64,000 bases of DNA from Natrinema amylolyticum (GTDB lineage Archaea; Halobacteriota; Halobacteria; Halobacteriales; Natrialbaceae). The translations under genes and the position numbers were made by a program. Under the pieces are notes generated by a model. The model was not told the origin of the DNA, did not search any database, and saw only the letters and a list, made by a program, of their open reading frames with translations. Location of the stretch: assembly GCF_020515625.1 (NCBI RefSeq), contig NZ_JAIWPJ010000001.1:434001-498000 (forward strand), written 5' to 3'. Positions 1,308-7,542 of this stretch are shown one piece after another; the first letter of the stretch is position 1; each line of letters opens with the position of its first letter.

Positions 1308-2336
1308 TCACTCGAGCCGCTCAGCGGCCTCTCGCTCGACGAGCGGGGCGGCGTTTTGTTCCGGCAGCGTGACGACGTCGTCGCTCGTCAGGGTGTACTC
1401 CCGATCGTCGACGCCGAGAATGGAGCCGATGTCGCTGGTGATCCGAACGGTCGTGCGGTCGACGTCGGCGGCCGCGTCCCGAGCCTCGCCGGTCGCCGGG
1501 GCGGCGTCGCCGTCCGCGGCCGGTGAGTCGACGGCGCGGTCGGTACCGGAGTCGGACTCCGACGAAGTCGCGTTCCCGTCGCGAGCACCGGGGCTTTCGT
1601 TCGGCGGTTGGTCCGACGGCCCGTCCGATCGGCCGCTCGACGGTCCGCTGTCATCGGTTCGTTCGGCCGTATCCCCGCCGTCGGTCGCTCCGACCGACGG
1701 CTCGTCCCCGCCCATGACGTCCGCGGGGGAGACGCCGCTCGAGTCGTCCGTTCCCGCGGCCGCGTCGGCTGCAGGGTCGACGTTCGACGACGGTGCGTCG
1801 GGCGGTGCCGGCGGTACGTCGTCCGCGGCCGCGTCGCCGGACGGCGGATTCTCGGCTCGCGGCTCGATCTCACCGGGCTCACCGTTCGATGGGGAATCGG
1901 ACGCAGCCGTCGAGCCAGCGCCCGCGCCCGAACCGGAGACCGGGTCCTCGACGCCCTCGAGGACGTCGAGGACGCGGGACTTGTTCGAGCCGATCCGCTC
2001 GATGAGATCGTCGAACAGGTCGGCTTCCTCGGCGGTCAGTCCCTCGTCGTCGGCCGGCATCCCGGCCGCGGCGAGGCTGGCCTGTTTGACGAGTTTGCCC
2101 ATCCGGCGCTCGTAGATCGCTTCGACGACGTCCTTGGCGGTCTCGATCTCGTCAGTCAGGCGACCGACTTCGGGCGCGGAAAAGGGATCGTCCGCCTGAT
2201 CGGCGACCCGGTCGCGTTCGTCCTCGAGATCGGCGATGTACTCGCCGACCTCCTGGTAGAACGAGGGGCGCAGGTTCTGGAGACTGTCCTTCTGGCGCTC
2301 CTTGCTCTGGACCGAACGCAACTCGTCTAGATTCAT
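1308..2336 (-). CDS. DNA replication complex GINS subunit (Gins51/Gins15 type)
   Basis: A 342-residue archaeal GINS protein that would form the tetramer linking the MCM helicase with the Cdc45/GAN protein and primase at replication forks. The helical A domain occupies about residues 1-115 (MNLDELRSVQSKERQKDSL, then a long amphipathic helical region), followed by a low-complexity linker of about 150 residues rich in Asp, Ser, Gly, Pro and Ala. A small C-terminal B domain follows (about 290-342, VRITSDIGSILGVDDREYTL). The A-then-B order is that of Gins51. The linker is unusually long. In archaea this gene normally sits next to priS; here a four-gene operon separates them. Confidence 0.85.
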   Translation of the reverse strand: MNLDELRSVQSKERQKDSLQNLRPSFYQEVGEYIADLEDERDRVADQADDPFSAPEVGRLTDEIETAKDVVEAIYERRMGKLVKQASLAAAGMPADDEGLTAEEADLFDDLIERIGSNKSRVLDVLEGVEDPVSGSGAGAGSTAASDSPSNGEPGEIEPRAENPPSGDAAADDVPPAPPDAPSSNVDPAADAAAGTDDSSGVSPADVMGGDEPSVGATDGGDTAERTDDSGPSSGRSDGPSDQPPNESPGARDGNATSSESDSGTDRAVDSPAADGDAAPATGEARDAAADVDRTTVRITSDIGSILGVDDREYTLTSDDVVTLPEQNAAPLVEREAAERLE

Positions 2337-2407
2337 TGATCACTCACACTACCCACCCCGGCGGGACGGTCGTAGTGAACTCCTGACCCGAGTGAACAGT
2401 CTCAGGG

Positions 2408-2418
2408 GTTGTAAACAT
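2408..2418 (-). promoter_or_regulatory. Probable TATA region for gins
   Basis: On the minus strand the string ATGTTTACAACC lies about 75-80 bases before the gins ATG. It is the only AT-rich TATA-like element between the halocyanin stop and gins, and would give a leader of about 50 bases. It suggests that gins has kept its own promoter despite the inserted upstream operon. Confidence 0.35.
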
Positions 2419-2490
2419 ATCGTCGTGGACGCGACGGCGGGGCGCAATCGGCGACCGACGGCACAGGTCCAGAGATCACCGAGAGGACCG

Positions 2491-3120
2491 CTATCGGACG
2501 GTAAACGTGCCCTCGAGTCCGAGCGTCTGGTGGGGGGCACAGAAGTACTGGTACTCGCCGGGCTCGTCGAACGTGTGGCCGTGTTCGTACCCCTCGTCGT
2601 AGGTGTCCGATGCGGTCCCCGGCGTTCCCTCCCAATCCGATCCGGCGGGTTTCGATCGGACGCGGAGATTGTGTCCCGAATCCATCCAGATCCAGTGAAC
2701 GGTGTCGCCCGCTTCGATTTCGAATGACTCAGGATCGAACTGGAACCCGTCCGGTGCGACCTCGACGATCTGTGACGGTTCCCGCTCGAGCGGCAGAGTC
2801 TCCGTTTCCTCGGTCTCCTCCGGATCCGTCGTCTCTTCGTCGTCGGTCGCGTTCTCGGACGAGTTGGACGGTGGATCCGTTTCGTCAGTGTCGCCGCCCG
2901 ACGTTGTCTCGTCACCGTCGCTCGGTTCCGGTCCCCAGGGGTTAGTCAAACAGCCGGACGCACCAATCGCGAGTGCCATCGCCGTCGTCGATAGCAGTGA
3001 TCGTCTGGTTCGGCCCGAATCGGTCGATCGGGTACGGTCCGGGAGGGGGTCACCGTCACTGTTCGATTCGGCGCTCGAGCGTCCGCCGTTGCCGCTGCTG
3101 TGTTTCGTGCGTTCGGTCAT
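2491..3120 (-). CDS. Halocyanin-like blue copper lipoprotein with Leu at the axial position
   Basis: A 209-residue secreted cupredoxin. Residues 37-57 form a twin-arginine lipoprotein signal (RTRRSLL, then lipobox ending at Cys57), followed by an acidic, Thr/Glu-rich spacer (58-115) and one plastocyanin domain (about 118-209). Copper ligands visible are His150 (SGHNLRV), Cys194 and His197 (FCAPHQ). The usual axial Met after the CxxH loop is Leu202 (LGLEG), which is expected to raise the redox potential. The start is set at the ATG overlapping the stop of the upstream membrane protein (ATGA). It is the last gene of a four-gene operon and presumably an electron carrier outside the membrane. Confidence 0.9.
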   Translation of the reverse strand: MTERTKHSSGNGGRSSAESNSDGDPLPDRTRSTDSGRTRRSLLSTTAMALAIGASGCLTNPWGPEPSDGDETTSGGDTDETDPPSNSSENATDDEETTDPEETEETETLPLEREPSQIVEVAPDGFQFDPESFEIEAGDTVHWIWMDSGHNLRVRSKPAGSDWEGTPGTASDTYDEGYEHGHTFDEPGEYQYFCAPHQTLGLEGTFTVR

Positions 3121-3740
3121 GGGTTCCTCGCTGGTTCGGCGGGTTGGTCGGGCGGTGACGGGTCGGCGGACGTGAGAGCAACGTCGGCGAGTACCGGCCC
3201 TGCGTGGACGACTCCGGTAAGCGCGAACATCCAAGTACGACTCTCGAGCGGAAACGCCGCCCACGATACGAAGGCGATCACCGCCAGCAGGCACCCGACG
3301 AAATACGCCAGTCGGGTGCGGTCGACGGCGACGATTCCCATCACCAGATAGCCCGCCGCGTATACCCCGATCCAGGGATGCCAGAGCCCGTATCTGACTA
3401 CCGATTCCGGAACCAGCCCGGTGACGACGGCGGCGTTGCTCGTCATCGCGACGGCGACGAGAATCCCCCACAGCCAGAACGGCGGGCCGTACTTGACCGC
3501 CCGAGAACCGGCCCCGAGAATTACGGCTGCAGTCGCCATCGTCGCCAGCAGCCAGAATAGGAGCACGAGTACCGTTCCCTCCACGCCGACTGTCCCGAGT
3601 GTACTGCCGGGATTCCAGGCGACGTACTGGGTCAGGCCCCAGCCGAACAGGCCGACGATCGCGACGAGAGCGAGCACCTGATCGACGTTCAGTCCGTCGT
3701 GGAGCGTCGAATCGACCGTTCCCGGTTCGGCGTTCGTCAT
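3117..3740 (-). CDS. Polytopic membrane protein of the halocyanin/ferredoxin operon
   Basis: A 207-residue membrane protein with about six hydrophobic segments (for example DQVLALVAIVGLFGWGL, a segment near VLVLLFWLLATMATAAVI, FWLWGILVAVAMTSNAAVV and LAYFVGCLLAVIAF) and a short Pro-rich cytoplasmic tail. I do not recognise the family. No heme-binding His pair or Fe-S motif is obvious, though His residues occur near GLWHPW and GVVHAGP. Four-base overlaps with both neighbours show tight translational coupling to a ferredoxin-fusion protein and a halocyanin, so it could anchor or pass electrons between them. That role is inferred from context. Confidence 0.8.
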   Translation of the reverse strand: MTNAEPGTVDSTLHDGLNVDQVLALVAIVGLFGWGLTQYVAWNPGSTLGTVGVEGTVLVLLFWLLATMATAAVILGAGSRAVKYGPPFWLWGILVAVAMTSNAAVVTGLVPESVVRYGLWHPWIGVYAAGYLVMGIVAVDRTRLAYFVGCLLAVIAFVSWAAFPLESRTWMFALTGVVHAGPVLADVALTSADPSPPDQPAEPARNP

Positions 3741-4690
3741 CGTTCCCCCGCGGTCGAGGCGCTCTTCGAGGTGCCGCCAGTTTCACTGCTGGTCCCGGGC
3801 TCGAGTTCGTATTCGAAGGTCCCGTCGTACTCCGCCTCCGTCACGGTAATCGGTTCCGGCGGTTCCTCGTCGACGTCGGTTCGGTCTTCGACGTGTTGGC
3901 CCCAGAGGCCGCCGTGTTTGGTCACCTCGAGGTCGCCGCGAACGCACGTTTGACAGGAGAGTCGAAGCCCGTCCGATTCCTCGTGCGGTGGCAGGCTGAG
4001 TCGCCGCTGCTCCCTCGAGCCCAGTTGGTCGGTCTCACCGTCGACCTCGACCGCACAGGTCCCACAGAGACCGTTCCCGCCGCAGTTCGCGACCTGGGTC
4101 ATCTCGTTGTGCGGCGAGTACCCGTCGGCTCGCAGGAGGGCGTCTCGCAACGTCGCCCCCTCGTCGCACTTGAGTTCCCGATCGCCGACGGTGACCGTCG
4201 GCATGCGGCGAAACGAGGGGCTCACGCCGTTGTAGATCAGATCGATCGAGTCGGTCATCCAGCACTCCGCGTACTTCCCTGCGGATTGTTCGGTGAGAAC
4301 GAACTCGTACGTTCGATCCCCCGCCGGATGGCGCGCGAGCACCGTCAGTGTAACGCGGCCATCCTCGTACTCGAGGGGGCCACGTTCGATCGACTCGGCG
4401 GCGAGCAAGCGGTCGTGCATCGGTCCCGAGAGCGTCGCTGCGAACGTCTCGAGCGAGCCGTGACGGGTTCGAAACTCGGGGCTCGCGAAATCGAACAGTG
4501 TTCGCAACGCCGGCGAAACCGATTCGTTCGAGCCACCACCAGCGTCCGTCTCGCTGGCTCCGAGGATCGACTCGACCTGTGCACGGACGACCTGCTCCGG
4601 CGTCAGAGACGGAGCCGGACCGGGACTGGTGACCGGCCAGTCCCCGTCTGTCGCGGACGCGGTGTCTGTAGCCTGATCGTCGGCCGTCAT
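3737..4690 (-). CDS. DUF4864-like domain fused to a [2Fe-2S] ferredoxin
   Basis: A 317-residue soluble protein. Residues about 28-150 resemble DUF4864 (an NTF2/SnoaL-like small fold): PEQVVRAQVESILG, FASPEFRTRHGSLETF and GRVTLTVLARH. Residues about 165-262 are an adrenodoxin-type ferredoxin with Cys203-x5-Cys209-x2-Cys212 (CGGNGLCGTC) and Cys246 (LSCQTC), enough for one [2Fe-2S] cluster. Cys249 is additional. A Glu/Thr-rich tail follows. No signal peptide is seen, so the protein should be cytoplasmic, opposite the halocyanin. It overlaps the MCP-like gene and the membrane-protein gene by four bases each. The fusion is unusual and its substrate is unknown. Confidence 0.8.
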   Translation of the reverse strand: MTADDQATDTASATDGDWPVTSPGPAPSLTPEQVVRAQVESILGASETDAGGGSNESVSPALRTLFDFASPEFRTRHGSLETFAATLSGPMHDRLLAAESIERGPLEYEDGRVTLTVLARHPAGDRTYEFVLTEQSAGKYAECWMTDSIDLIYNGVSPSFRRMPTVTVGDRELKCDEGATLRDALLRADGYSPHNEMTQVANCGGNGLCGTCAVEVDGETDQLGSREQRRLSLPPHEESDGLRLSCQTCVRGDLEVTKHGGLWGQHVEDRTDVDEEPPEPITVTEAEYDGTFEYELEPGTSSETGGTSKSASTAGER

Positions 4691-6258
4691 TGCGTCGCAC
4701 CTCGGGGCGAGTCCCGCGAAACCGATGATTCACGGACCGTGAACCGCTCGAGACGGCTCTCGAGGTCAGTCGCGGTCGACGAGAGCCAGTCGAGTCTATC
4801 CTGAATCTCGTCGACCGTCGTCTGTTGTTCCGCAGCCGCTCTCGCGGCCGTCGATGCTTCGGTCGCGGTCTCCGCGCTGATCTCCCGAACCGCTTCGACC
4901 GACTCGAGGGCGTCAGCCGTTCGGGCCGCCTGCGTGTCGGTGGCCTCGTCGATCGCGTCGATCTCGTTCGACGTCGCCGTGACGACCGATTCGACGTCCT
5001 CGAGCGCGCCGAGCGCTCCCTCGATCGTTTCCGCACTGCGTTCGATCGCTGCCTCTGTCTCCGTGATCTCGGAGACCGCGGCGGCAGTCTGGGACTCGAT
5101 TCCGTCCACGATGCGTTCGATATCCGTCGCTGCGCCGTCGGTGTCGGCTGCGAGTTTCTTGATCTGTCGAGTCAATCGCTTCGAGATCTCGCCGTCGCCG
5201 TCCCGCGAGGCTTCGATCTGCGTGTTATTCGCCAAGTGGTTCGTTCGCTTCGTCATCTCGGAGATGAGATCGGTAATCTCGCCGATCTCGCCGACGAGTT
5301 CTGCGAGCGTCCGTATCTCCTCGACCGATCGGTTCGTCTGGGCACGGATCTCCGCGAGCTGCTCGAGTGCATCTTCCGCCGCGGCCGCCCCTTCTCGAGT
5401 CGTGGTAGCGGCGCGCTCGGAGCGTCTCGCGACGGAAACCGTTTCGGCAGCGATCGAATCGACGCTGTCGGCGAGCGTCTCCATCGCCCCTGCCGTTTGC
5501 TCGAGGCGGGCGTACTGCTGGTCGACGCCGTCACTGATCGACGCCGTCGAGTCGGTCACTGCCATCGCGGACTGGTTGACGCGGCCGGCGTGGTCGGTCG
5601 TTTCGGCGGCGGCCGCCGTGACCCGCTGACTGTAGGTCCTGATCTCGGCGACCATCGTCTCCGTCTCGTCCATCATCGCGTTGAAATTCGTCGCGAGGGC
5701 CTCGAACTGCGGAATGTCGGTCTCCGTCTCCATTCGCCGAGTGAGGTCGCCGCGGCGACAGGCGGCGAGCGTCTGGGAGTGGCTCGTCGCAACCGTCGCG
5801 AGTTCCCTGTTCAGCGATTCGACGGTCTCGACCTGCGTCTCGAGTTCGTCTCGGAGCGCTGCGACCCGCCACGAGAGCTGTCCGATCTCGTCCTTCCGGG
5901 CGGTCGAAAATTCGGTTCCGTGGGTTCCCTTTTCGACGATGGCCCGCGTCCGCTCGTCGAGTTCTCGAAGACCGCCGACGAGCGATTGGCGGACGACTGC
6001 CAGTGCGACGAACTGCCCGGTAAGCAGGACCAGGAGTGTGAGAACGCCACCGCGGTAGACGACCTGCGCGCCCTCGAAAGTCGTGACGAACCGCGACGTT
6101 AGCTGCCAGACCGCGATGGCGACGGCGGCGGTAGTGAGAACGGCCATCGTGACTCCGATGGCTGCCAGCTTTCCGGTGATGCTTCGGCGCGGATCGAGTT
6201 GCCGGGCGAGCCTTCTCCCTCGCCGTTCGACCCACGACCGAACGAGTGACGTATCCAT
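4687..6258 (-). CDS. Methyl-accepting-chemotaxis-like transducer with degenerate signalling tip
   Basis: A 523-residue transducer (540 if an upstream in-frame ATG at 6309 is used; 6258 fits a TATA box about 26 bases upstream). Two membrane helices (about 29-53 and 70-93) flank a loop of only about 15 residues, so there is no extracellular sensor domain. Two HAMP-like segments follow (one with KDEIGQLSWRVAALRDELE, one with GDLTRRMETETDIPQFEALA), then a long coiled-coil signalling domain. The hairpin tip keeps TNHLANN and QIEASR, but the conserved ARAGE-x-G-x-GFAVVADEV half is replaced by DGDGEISKRLTRQIKKLA. This may abolish ordinary CheW/CheA coupling. It is the first gene of the redox operon and may sense redox state. 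Confidence 0.85.
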   Translation of the reverse strand: MDTSLVRSWVERRGRRLARQLDPRRSITGKLAAIGVTMAVLTTAAVAIAVWQLTSRFVTTFEGAQVVYRGGVLTLLVLLTGQFVALAVVRQSLVGGLRELDERTRAIVEKGTHGTEFSTARKDEIGQLSWRVAALRDELETQVETVESLNRELATVATSHSQTLAACRRGDLTRRMETETDIPQFEALATNFNAMMDETETMVAEIRTYSQRVTAAAAETTDHAGRVNQSAMAVTDSTASISDGVDQQYARLEQTAGAMETLADSVDSIAAETVSVARRSERAATTTREGAAAAEDALEQLAEIRAQTNRSVEEIRTLAELVGEIGEITDLISEMTKRTNHLANNTQIEASRDGDGEISKRLTRQIKKLAADTDGAATDIERIVDGIESQTAAAVSEITETEAAIERSAETIEGALGALEDVESVVTATSNEIDAIDEATDTQAARTADALESVEAVREISAETATEASTAARAAAEQQTTVDEIQDRLDWLSSTATDLESRLERFTVRESSVSRDSPRGATQ

Positions 6259-6278: not shown

Positions 6279-6285
6279 GGTAAAG
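6279..6285 (-). promoter_or_regulatory. TATA-like element of the transducer operon
   Basis: The minus-strand string CTTTACC lies about 25 bases before the ATG at 6258, the position expected for a leaderless haloarchaeal transcript. It supports the downstream start for the transducer and separate transcription of the four-gene operon from priS. Confidence 0.4.
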
Positions 6286-6366
6286 AGGGTTGTCCGGATT
6301 GTCACCCAAATTCGACGGAATTTCGCCACAGATGTGCGCCTCCGGGCCGCAGTCGACTGATTCGAA

Positions 6367-7542
6367 TTACTCCTTTTCCTTCTCGGCTCGGCCGCGTGCC
6401 ATCAGGAACACGGCGACGTACTCAGGGAGCGTTTGTACGCCCGCCGAAACCGAGTGTGTCTCACCGGCCAGTTCGACCTCGCCACCGTCGGTGACGTCGA
6501 CCGTGATCTCGTGGCCCTCGAACGTCTCCGGGACGGCGTCGACCAGCGGGTCGAAGTCCGCGATCTCGTCGCGCTCGAGTCGCACCGTTTTCAGCCCGCT
6601 CCCGCCGTGGAGACTGCCGGGGAGGCGGATGAGCCGGTTCGTGTCCGTCGTGACCGGTTCGTCGATGGGCGCGTTGTCCCGCTCGACGGCCGTGCTCGCG
6701 AACCGTTCGGCCAACTGCGCGACGGCGGTGTGGACGGTGACGTTGCCCGCCTCGAGCTGCTCGCGGTTGTTGCGGGCCGCGTTCAGCGTGGCCGTCGCCT
6801 TCCCCTCGCCGATGCCGTCGAAGGCCTGGAGCCGCTCGAGGGCGGCGTCTTCCTCGAGTTCGAGCAACTCGTCGACGAAGGCCATGAAGTGGTCGTGCGT
6901 CCGAGCGCCCCACCCGCCCTCGATCTGGAGCGTGCGCCGTTCAGTCGGGGTCTTCCGTCCCAGCCCGGCCACCGTCTCAGTCTCGATCAGGTCCTCGAAC
7001 TCGAGGCCGATGCCGCGGACGTAGTCGACGATCTCGCGGCGGTGCTCCCGCTCCAACTGCAGGACGTTCTCGTCGCGGACGTGGACGTGATACCCCCGGC
7101 CGCCCGAGAAGACGATCTCGAGGTCCTCGAAGGCGAAGTCCTCTTCGAGAAACTCGAGTAGTCGGAGCAGTGCGGCCTTACACTTCGCGAGCATCTCACC
7201 GTAGCTGTCCTCGCCCAGCGTGACGCTGGGCAGGTGGTCGGCGTCGAGATCGAAGACGAGATCCGCGGACTGCCACTCCTTTTCGGCCATCGAACTCGCG
7301 CCGGGGTCGCGAAACCGGCCGGCGGAGAAGTAGACGTGTCGCGGGCGCTTTCGGACGAGGAACTCCGAGAGGTTGCCCAACTCGAGCAGCGAACGGTGGC
7401 GGACCATCGTCGTGTCCGGGCCCTCCGTCCAGGGGATAAAGCCCCACTCGCGTTCGTTGGCCGCGGGCGGCGGCGTGATCTCTGTGCGTCGATAGTGATC
7501 GCGGAATCGCCCCCGCAGATAGGCCCTCGTTCGCTCCTCCAT
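6367..7542 (-). CDS. priS: DNA primase small (catalytic) subunit
   Basis: A 391-residue PriS, the catalytic subunit that makes primers with PriL. The start MEERTRAYLRGRFRDHY is typical for haloarchaeal PriS. The catalytic acidic pair is Asp98 and Asp100 (VFDLDADHLP), and the nucleotide-binding motif SGGRGYHVHV is intact, as are the C-terminal basic segments including RLIRLPGSLHGGSGLK. A longer frame exists upstream of the ATG, but it lacks family similarity and the chosen start matches the usual length. The gene is followed by the redox operon and only then by gins, breaking the normal priS-gins neighbourhood. Confidence 0.95.
   Translation of the reverse strand: MEERTRAYLRGRFRDHYRRTEITPPPAANEREWGFIPWTEGPDTTMVRHRSLLELGNLSEFLVRKRPRHVYFSAGRFRDPGASSMAEKEWQSADLVFDLDADHLPSVTLGEDSYGEMLAKCKAALLRLLEFLEEDFAFEDLEIVFSGGRGYHVHVRDENVLQLEREHRREIVDYVRGIGLEFEDLIETETVAGLGRKTPTERRTLQIEGGWGARTHDHFMAFVDELLELEEDAALERLQAFDGIGEGKATATLNAARNNREQLEAGNVTVHTAVAQLAERFASTAVERDNAPIDEPVTTDTNRLIRLPGSLHGGSGLKTVRLERDEIADFDPLVDAVPETFEGHEITVDVTDGGEVELAGETHSVSAGVQTLPEYVAVFLMARGRAEKEKE

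Follow-up and report, generated by a model that had tools for sequence, protein, structure and literature searches.

A four-gene haloarchaeal unit next to replication genes as a possible multi-part membrane redox sensor

The CetA/CetB receptor of Campylobacter provides the precedent for a two-part sensor built on a sensorless MCP (PMC3558505), with a membrane MCP and a separately encoded cytoplasmic PAS-domain protein proposed as the redox sensor. In haloarchaea, it is established that Htrs work with separate receptor proteins (PMC3579733). Htr-sensory rhodopsin pairs and opsin-related proteins (PMC4915679) combine a two-TM transducer, which has no external domain, with a co-encoded membrane partner.

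A four-gene unit that partly resembles both arrangements was analyzed in a window of 64,000 nucleotides, positions 434001-498000 of contig C1 of the 4.7-Mb haloarchaeal genome G000. On the minus strand, the gene order is priS, transducer, ferredoxin fusion, 6-TM protein, blue-copper lipoprotein and gins (Table 1), and the three inner junctions are 4-base ATGA overlaps (4687-4690, 3737-3740 and 3117-3120). This confirms an earlier sequence-only reading, which had described four coupled genes with three such overlaps between gins and priS. CetA/CetB is the nearest working analogue: a [2Fe-2S] gene adjoins that of a sensorless MCP in all copies of the unit. However, the partner is a fusion of Fer2 and DUF4864 instead of a PAS-domain protein, the unit also encodes a 6-TM protein and a copper protein outside the cell, and the transducer tip is eroded. 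Regarding the Htr pairs, the transducer architecture and the co-encoded membrane partner are shared, but the 6-TM protein does not belong to the opsins. An opsin-type/MCP pair is encoded elsewhere in G000. The four genes are tentatively interpreted as one leaderless operon whose products would make up a multi-part membrane redox sensor of the bipartite-receptor type, with an output other than ordinary CheA control, an interpretation to which we give somewhat less than an even chance.

Table 1. Features of the four-gene unit and its flanks in the window.
Feature	Position	Strand	Context	Sequence evidence
priS	7542..6367	minus	left insertion flank	NF001639 PriS, 712 bits
promoter/operator GAATTTGGGTGACAATCCGGACAACCCTCTTTA	6281..6313	minus	22 nt ahead of transducer start codon	
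MCP-like transducer	4687..6258	minus		PF00015 50.1 bits (cut-off 34.6); HAMP 20.3 bits (sub-threshold, cut-off 25)
DUF4864–[2Fe-2S] ferredoxin fusion	3737..4690	minus		Fer2 and DUF4864 profile matches in family
6-TM protein	3117..3740	minus		six TM segments (read from sequence); no assigned family
blue-copper (halocyanin/plastocyanin-like) lipoprotein	2491..3120	minus		PF00127 57.7 bits
spacer with probable private gins promoter	2337..2490	minus		TTTACAA near 2409-2415
gins (Gins51-type)	1308..2336	minus	right insertion flank	PF22090 (Gins51_C) and PF05916 (Sld5) above cut-off

The unit was searched for with the 6-TM protein in 392 genomes of the order and with the ferredoxin fusion in 384. 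It was found complete in 10 of about 390 genomes, belonging to five genera and with identical gene order everywhere: G000 and G010 (one genus), G034 and G324 (genus g7), G036, G283, G286 and G364 (genus g9), and G093 and G071, from two other families. G038 holds only the transducer and the ferredoxin fusion. Halorubellus salinus, Haloarchaeobius iranensis, Haloarchaeobius sp. FL176 and Salinarchaeum laminariae are among the carriers. The 30 inner junctions of the ten copies comprise 29 overlaps of 4 bases and one of a single base (transducer/ferredoxin in G093). Since order and overlaps are kept in nine further genomes, the coupling of the genes exceeds chance. All ten four-gene loci have a 33-bp element upstream, with TATA-like CTTTA at its end and exactly 22 nt between it and the transducer ATG. 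The spacing is the same in both chromosomal settings described below (priS/gins and carB); this element is absent upstream of the G038 transducer. The 22-nt spacing fits a leaderless transcript. The upstream half-site varies, from the inverted repeat AAATTC-CGTC-GAATTT in G000 and G010 to TTTGG-type repeats in the carB-linked copies.

Between G000 and G010, the four module genes are under purifying selection (dN/dS 0.16-0.34, with 0.08 for the flanking priS and 0.38 for gins). The 6-TM gene of G036 (H. iranensis) shows a single-base frameshift in a G run (L052, 7312-7969), either a sequencing error or decay. Standalone homologues of the copper-protein gene were found in Haloarcula, Halomicrobium, Halosegnis and bacterial loci, where the other three genes are absent. 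The expectation that the four genes would co-occur elsewhere therefore held in nine further genomes, and since a few distant relatives have both the unit and its promoter, the module is real. Judging from these comparisons, the four genes are an inserted, coherent module, and no description of this gene set was found in the open-access literature searched; by that measure, the module is undescribed.

The chromosomal position of the unit differs among carriers. It separates priS from gins in G000 and G010, whereas in G093 and G071 these two genes are adjacent (with a 4-base overlap in G093) and the unit lies downstream of gins; in the remaining six copies, from two genera, it follows carB. That four unrelated genes were merely gathered at an insertion hot spot is hardly credible: the rarity of the full unit would suit such chance neighbours, but order, overlaps and promoter are constant in five genera at differing sites, and the conservation of gene order across families refutes this reading. 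From its placements, the unit is not unique to the priS/gins site; it moves and is lost, and it seems to be self-regulated.

Adjacency of PriS and Gins51 genes, sometimes overlapping, has been described (PMC2861644). In the genus of the window, gins starts inside the priS stop codon in 24 of 29 genomes, so the sequence-only reading was right for this genus that Gins51 normally adjoins priS. In congeners lacking the unit, both genes are joined, usually with a 4-base overlap. The exceptions are the carriers G000 and G010, G027 and G012 with gaps of 180-235 nt, and G016 with a contig break. In G010, the end of the copper-protein gene and the gins leader align to the gap of G027 (score 202, against at most 30 after shuffling), and the G012 gap contains a piece of ~75 nt matching the transducer gene (61 vs 33) plus the same gins leader. 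Both gaps are deletion scars, and the unit was therefore once present in these genomes and has been lost at least twice. The leader, TTTACAA with ~50 near-identical bases, is common only to G000, G010, G027 and G012, and the block is missing where gins overlaps priS. Hence, gins in the inserted setting probably gained its own promoter, which would explain why this essential pair of replication genes withstands being split.

At synonymous sites, G000 is nearer to the module-less G015 and G009 (about 0.3) than to G010 (about 0.5), so the history of the insertion allele is patchy. Either a single insertion was later lost or replaced by the other allele in some genomes, or lineages may have exchanged it. 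A recent transfer of the module between G000 and G010 is unsupported, because module dS (0.34-0.46) is only slightly under flanking dS (0.49-0.61). In a tree of the concatenated proteins, the three genera of one family cluster (93% support) and G093 and G071 fall outside, which agrees with an old, vertically inherited module that was lost many times.

Concerning the redox proteins, profile searches matched Fer2 in all 11 family members of the ferredoxin fusion and DUF4864 in 6 of them (best E 1.3e-5). The model of the N-terminal DUF4864 domain resembles NTF2-like folds (Foldseek best E 0.009). The four cysteines of the plant-type [2Fe-2S] motif, C203-x5-C209-x2-C212-x33-C246, are invariant in the 11 sequences, and likewise C143 and C175. 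Haloarchaeal short [2Fe-2S] ferredoxins, found in many genomes, are about 50-60% identical over the cluster domain, but they have neither the DUF4864 domain nor the operon. The copper lipoprotein shows an invariant twin-arginine signal/lipobox (RR...GCLxNPW) and invariant Cu ligands H150, C194 and H197. It thus shares PF00127, the H-C-H ligands and the RR signal with lipobox with the halocyanin/plastocyanin family, but it falls under the NCBIfam halocyanin cut-off (TIGR03102, 52.4 of 93.8 bits), and 8 of the 10 copies have Leu instead of the axial Met, including Leu202 in the window, with Met in the other 2. An axial Leu would be in keeping with a carrier of high potential.

The 6-TM protein had no Pfam, NCBIfam or PDB-sequence match. 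In an alignment of nine sequences, the motifs GV(V/L)HAxP-xL-xD and LWxPW are invariant; a single His is conserved throughout, and no cofactor site can be recognised. By profile, the protein matches (hhalign probability 99.6) a wider family of haloarchaeal 6-TM proteins, which is unnamed, has no Pfam entry and stands beside a UspA-like gene in several genomes (L061-L070). Weak Foldseek rhodopsin matches and the opsin-related proteins mentioned above (PMC4915679) prompted a comparison with nine haloarchaeal opsins, which gave an hhalign probability of 0.2; there was no PF01036 (Bac_rhodopsin) match, and the protein has six TM segments, not seven helices. The opsin-like assignment was rejected. 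A fold match to TMEM45A (VIA-align Z 12.2, rmsd 3.8, 175 aligned; model pLDDT 68, pTM 0.59) was also set aside because it is within the chance range for helical bundles.

These features bear on whether electrons pass between the cytoplasmic [2Fe-2S] and the external copper proteins via the 6-TM protein, with the MCP-like protein as a scaffold only. In favour of such a chain, the unit has redox proteins at either face of the membrane that are translated together with a membrane protein, the axial Leu of most copper-protein copies agrees with it, and the relatives of the operator (see below) adjoin other extracellular lipoproteins, a halocyanin at one locus. Nevertheless, electron transfer seems rather unlikely. 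With a single invariant His, the 6-TM protein has no heme-ligand pair, it shows no cofactor motif and no family match in the databases named above, and the invariant features of the transducer are left unexplained. The chain through the membrane suggested by the sequence-only reading is therefore unsupported. Of its two proposals, redox sensing stands as the best guess, while electron export is weak because no conduit is visible in the 6-TM protein.

The transducer consists of two TM helices with a ~17-residue loop, a HAMP-like linker, a coiled coil and an eroded hairpin tip. As read from the sequence, no external sensor domain is present, only the short inter-TM loop, in agreement with the earlier description of a transducer lacking an external sensor. 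The MCP signalling domain is detectable (PF00015 above cut-off), but the protein is not a standard transducer, since its kinase-coupling hairpin is eroded. Among five representatives, the HAMP/linker (residues 121-200) is best conserved, with mean identity of 0.68-0.73, and the tip is among the less conserved regions (0.33-0.49). Against a 41-position consensus built from 15 other MCPs of four module-carrying genomes, the CheA/CheW-binding tip retains 15-22 positions in the ten four-gene copies (22 in the window), compared with 31-41 in the ordinary MCPs of those four genomes. The G038 homologue keeps a near-canonical tip (29/41). PADLOC matches to a defence system arise only through the coiled coil, and that assignment was discarded.

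An ordinary energy or redox taxis receptor that signals to CheA, its tip having only diverged, would agree with the G038 homologue and with the presence of CheW/CheA in 11/11 genomes with transducer/ferredoxin genes; full che clusters were read in four carrier genomes. The che genes do not discriminate, however, since CheW occurs in 185 of 243 genomes of the order. By contrast, the tip is degenerate in every four-gene copy and differs between lineages, which is the opposite of a conserved kinase interface. Ordinary energy taxis via CheA is, from these comparisons, doubtful, and we regard it as distinctly unlikely. HemATs, a class with a reported role in aerotaxis, are relatives of a reported O2 transducer, and the HemAT-like globin MCPs of four module genomes also have degenerate tips (18-23/41; L212, L218, L219 and L220), so tip decay need not mean that tactic function was lost. 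The eroded tip thus argues against ordinary CheA control but leaves some room for it. CheA is about 1100-1350 aa in these genomes (L224 11001-15047; L225-L227), with a weaker CheW match, compared with roughly 700 aa in many other haloarchaea.

While the anatomy of the module is firm, the mechanism of the preferred redox sensor is a guess. We infer that the module products form one complex sensing redox state. One self-contained leaderless operon would hold the four genes together through chromosomal moves. The blue-copper lipoprotein would exchange electrons outside the cell and the [2Fe-2S]/DUF4864 protein would report on the cytoplasm, both being anchored to the two-helix transducer by the 6-TM protein. 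As two-part energy-taxis receptors do, the transducer would receive the signal at its HAMP/linker (residues 121-200). Given the decay of the CheA/CheW-binding tip, its output is unlikely to be ordinary control of chemotaxis; array parts may be sequestered, or a partner of its own may be addressed. If this is right, the chemoreceptor coil has been re-used in a membrane-spanning redox complex, apparently without the classical kinase interface.

A pattern search for the promoter element in eight genomes gave two sites besides those of the module. One, in G093, precedes a gene for a secreted DUF7282-repeat protein and the other, in G364, a gene for a Lipoprotein_15 protein; both are directly behind a gene pair encoding an ArsR-type winged HTH protein and a membrane protein of ~100 aa. 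This HTH-TM pair is present in 262 of 384 genomes. At the 30 loci examined (L239-L268), the gene behind it is usually Lipoprotein_15-like and once a halocyanin, and GAATTTTGGACGGAGTTCGGAAAACCCTCAT-like sites were found in 29 of the 30 spacers. An operator matrix built solely from 29 HTH-TM sites, with no module sites, ranked the module promoter first in 10/10 module loci with scores of 14.3-24.5, the background maximum being 6.0 in 359 kb on both strands. In the window, the module promoter scores 24.1 and the next site -1.6. The HTH-TM pair of G000 itself (C1:959903-960205), 0.5 Mb away, has two operator sites scoring 27.7 and 16.4. Of the congeners sampled, only G000, G010, G027 and G028 have a closely similar pair (E about 1e-16); the first three of them have the unit or once had it. 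The operator matches suggest that the module promoter is controlled by the ArsR-type HTH and small membrane protein pair. As in the module, the operator GAATTTTGGACNNAGTTCGGAAAAC of the HTH-TM-lipoprotein loci is upstream of an extracellular lipoprotein gene, but there a single adjacent surface protein is controlled, whereas the module has four genes and no regulator beside it.

The ArsR-type regulator of this operator family, as well as the patchy distribution and repeated loss of the unit, would also suit a stress, assembly or homeostasis module, for instance for envelope copper or Fe-S handling, instead of a sensor. Metal-transport P-type ATPase-, small metal chaperone- and FmdE-like genes, read from sequence, lie beyond priS in G010 (L051 10238-13098), the first two pointing the same way. 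They occur in G010 only, though, and no component of the module looks like a chaperone, a transporter or a maturation factor, so this role is improbable. With this second insertion, across priS from the unit, the priS locus may be a hot spot for insertions.

An extension of the sensor reading, to which we grant a minor chance, is a four-part receptor that would read electron pressure on both membrane faces, with a private non-CheA output, and would belong to a surface-redox regulon under the HTH-membrane pair. If right, it points to an undescribed haloarchaeal regulon governing extracellular redox proteins. Module and regulon are directly testable in the cultured unit carriers Halorubellus, Haloarchaeobius and Salinarchaeum. 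Apart from the module, the widespread haloarchaeal HTH-TM pair with its operator and its Lipoprotein_15, DUF7282-protein or halocyanin targets looks like an undescribed regulon.
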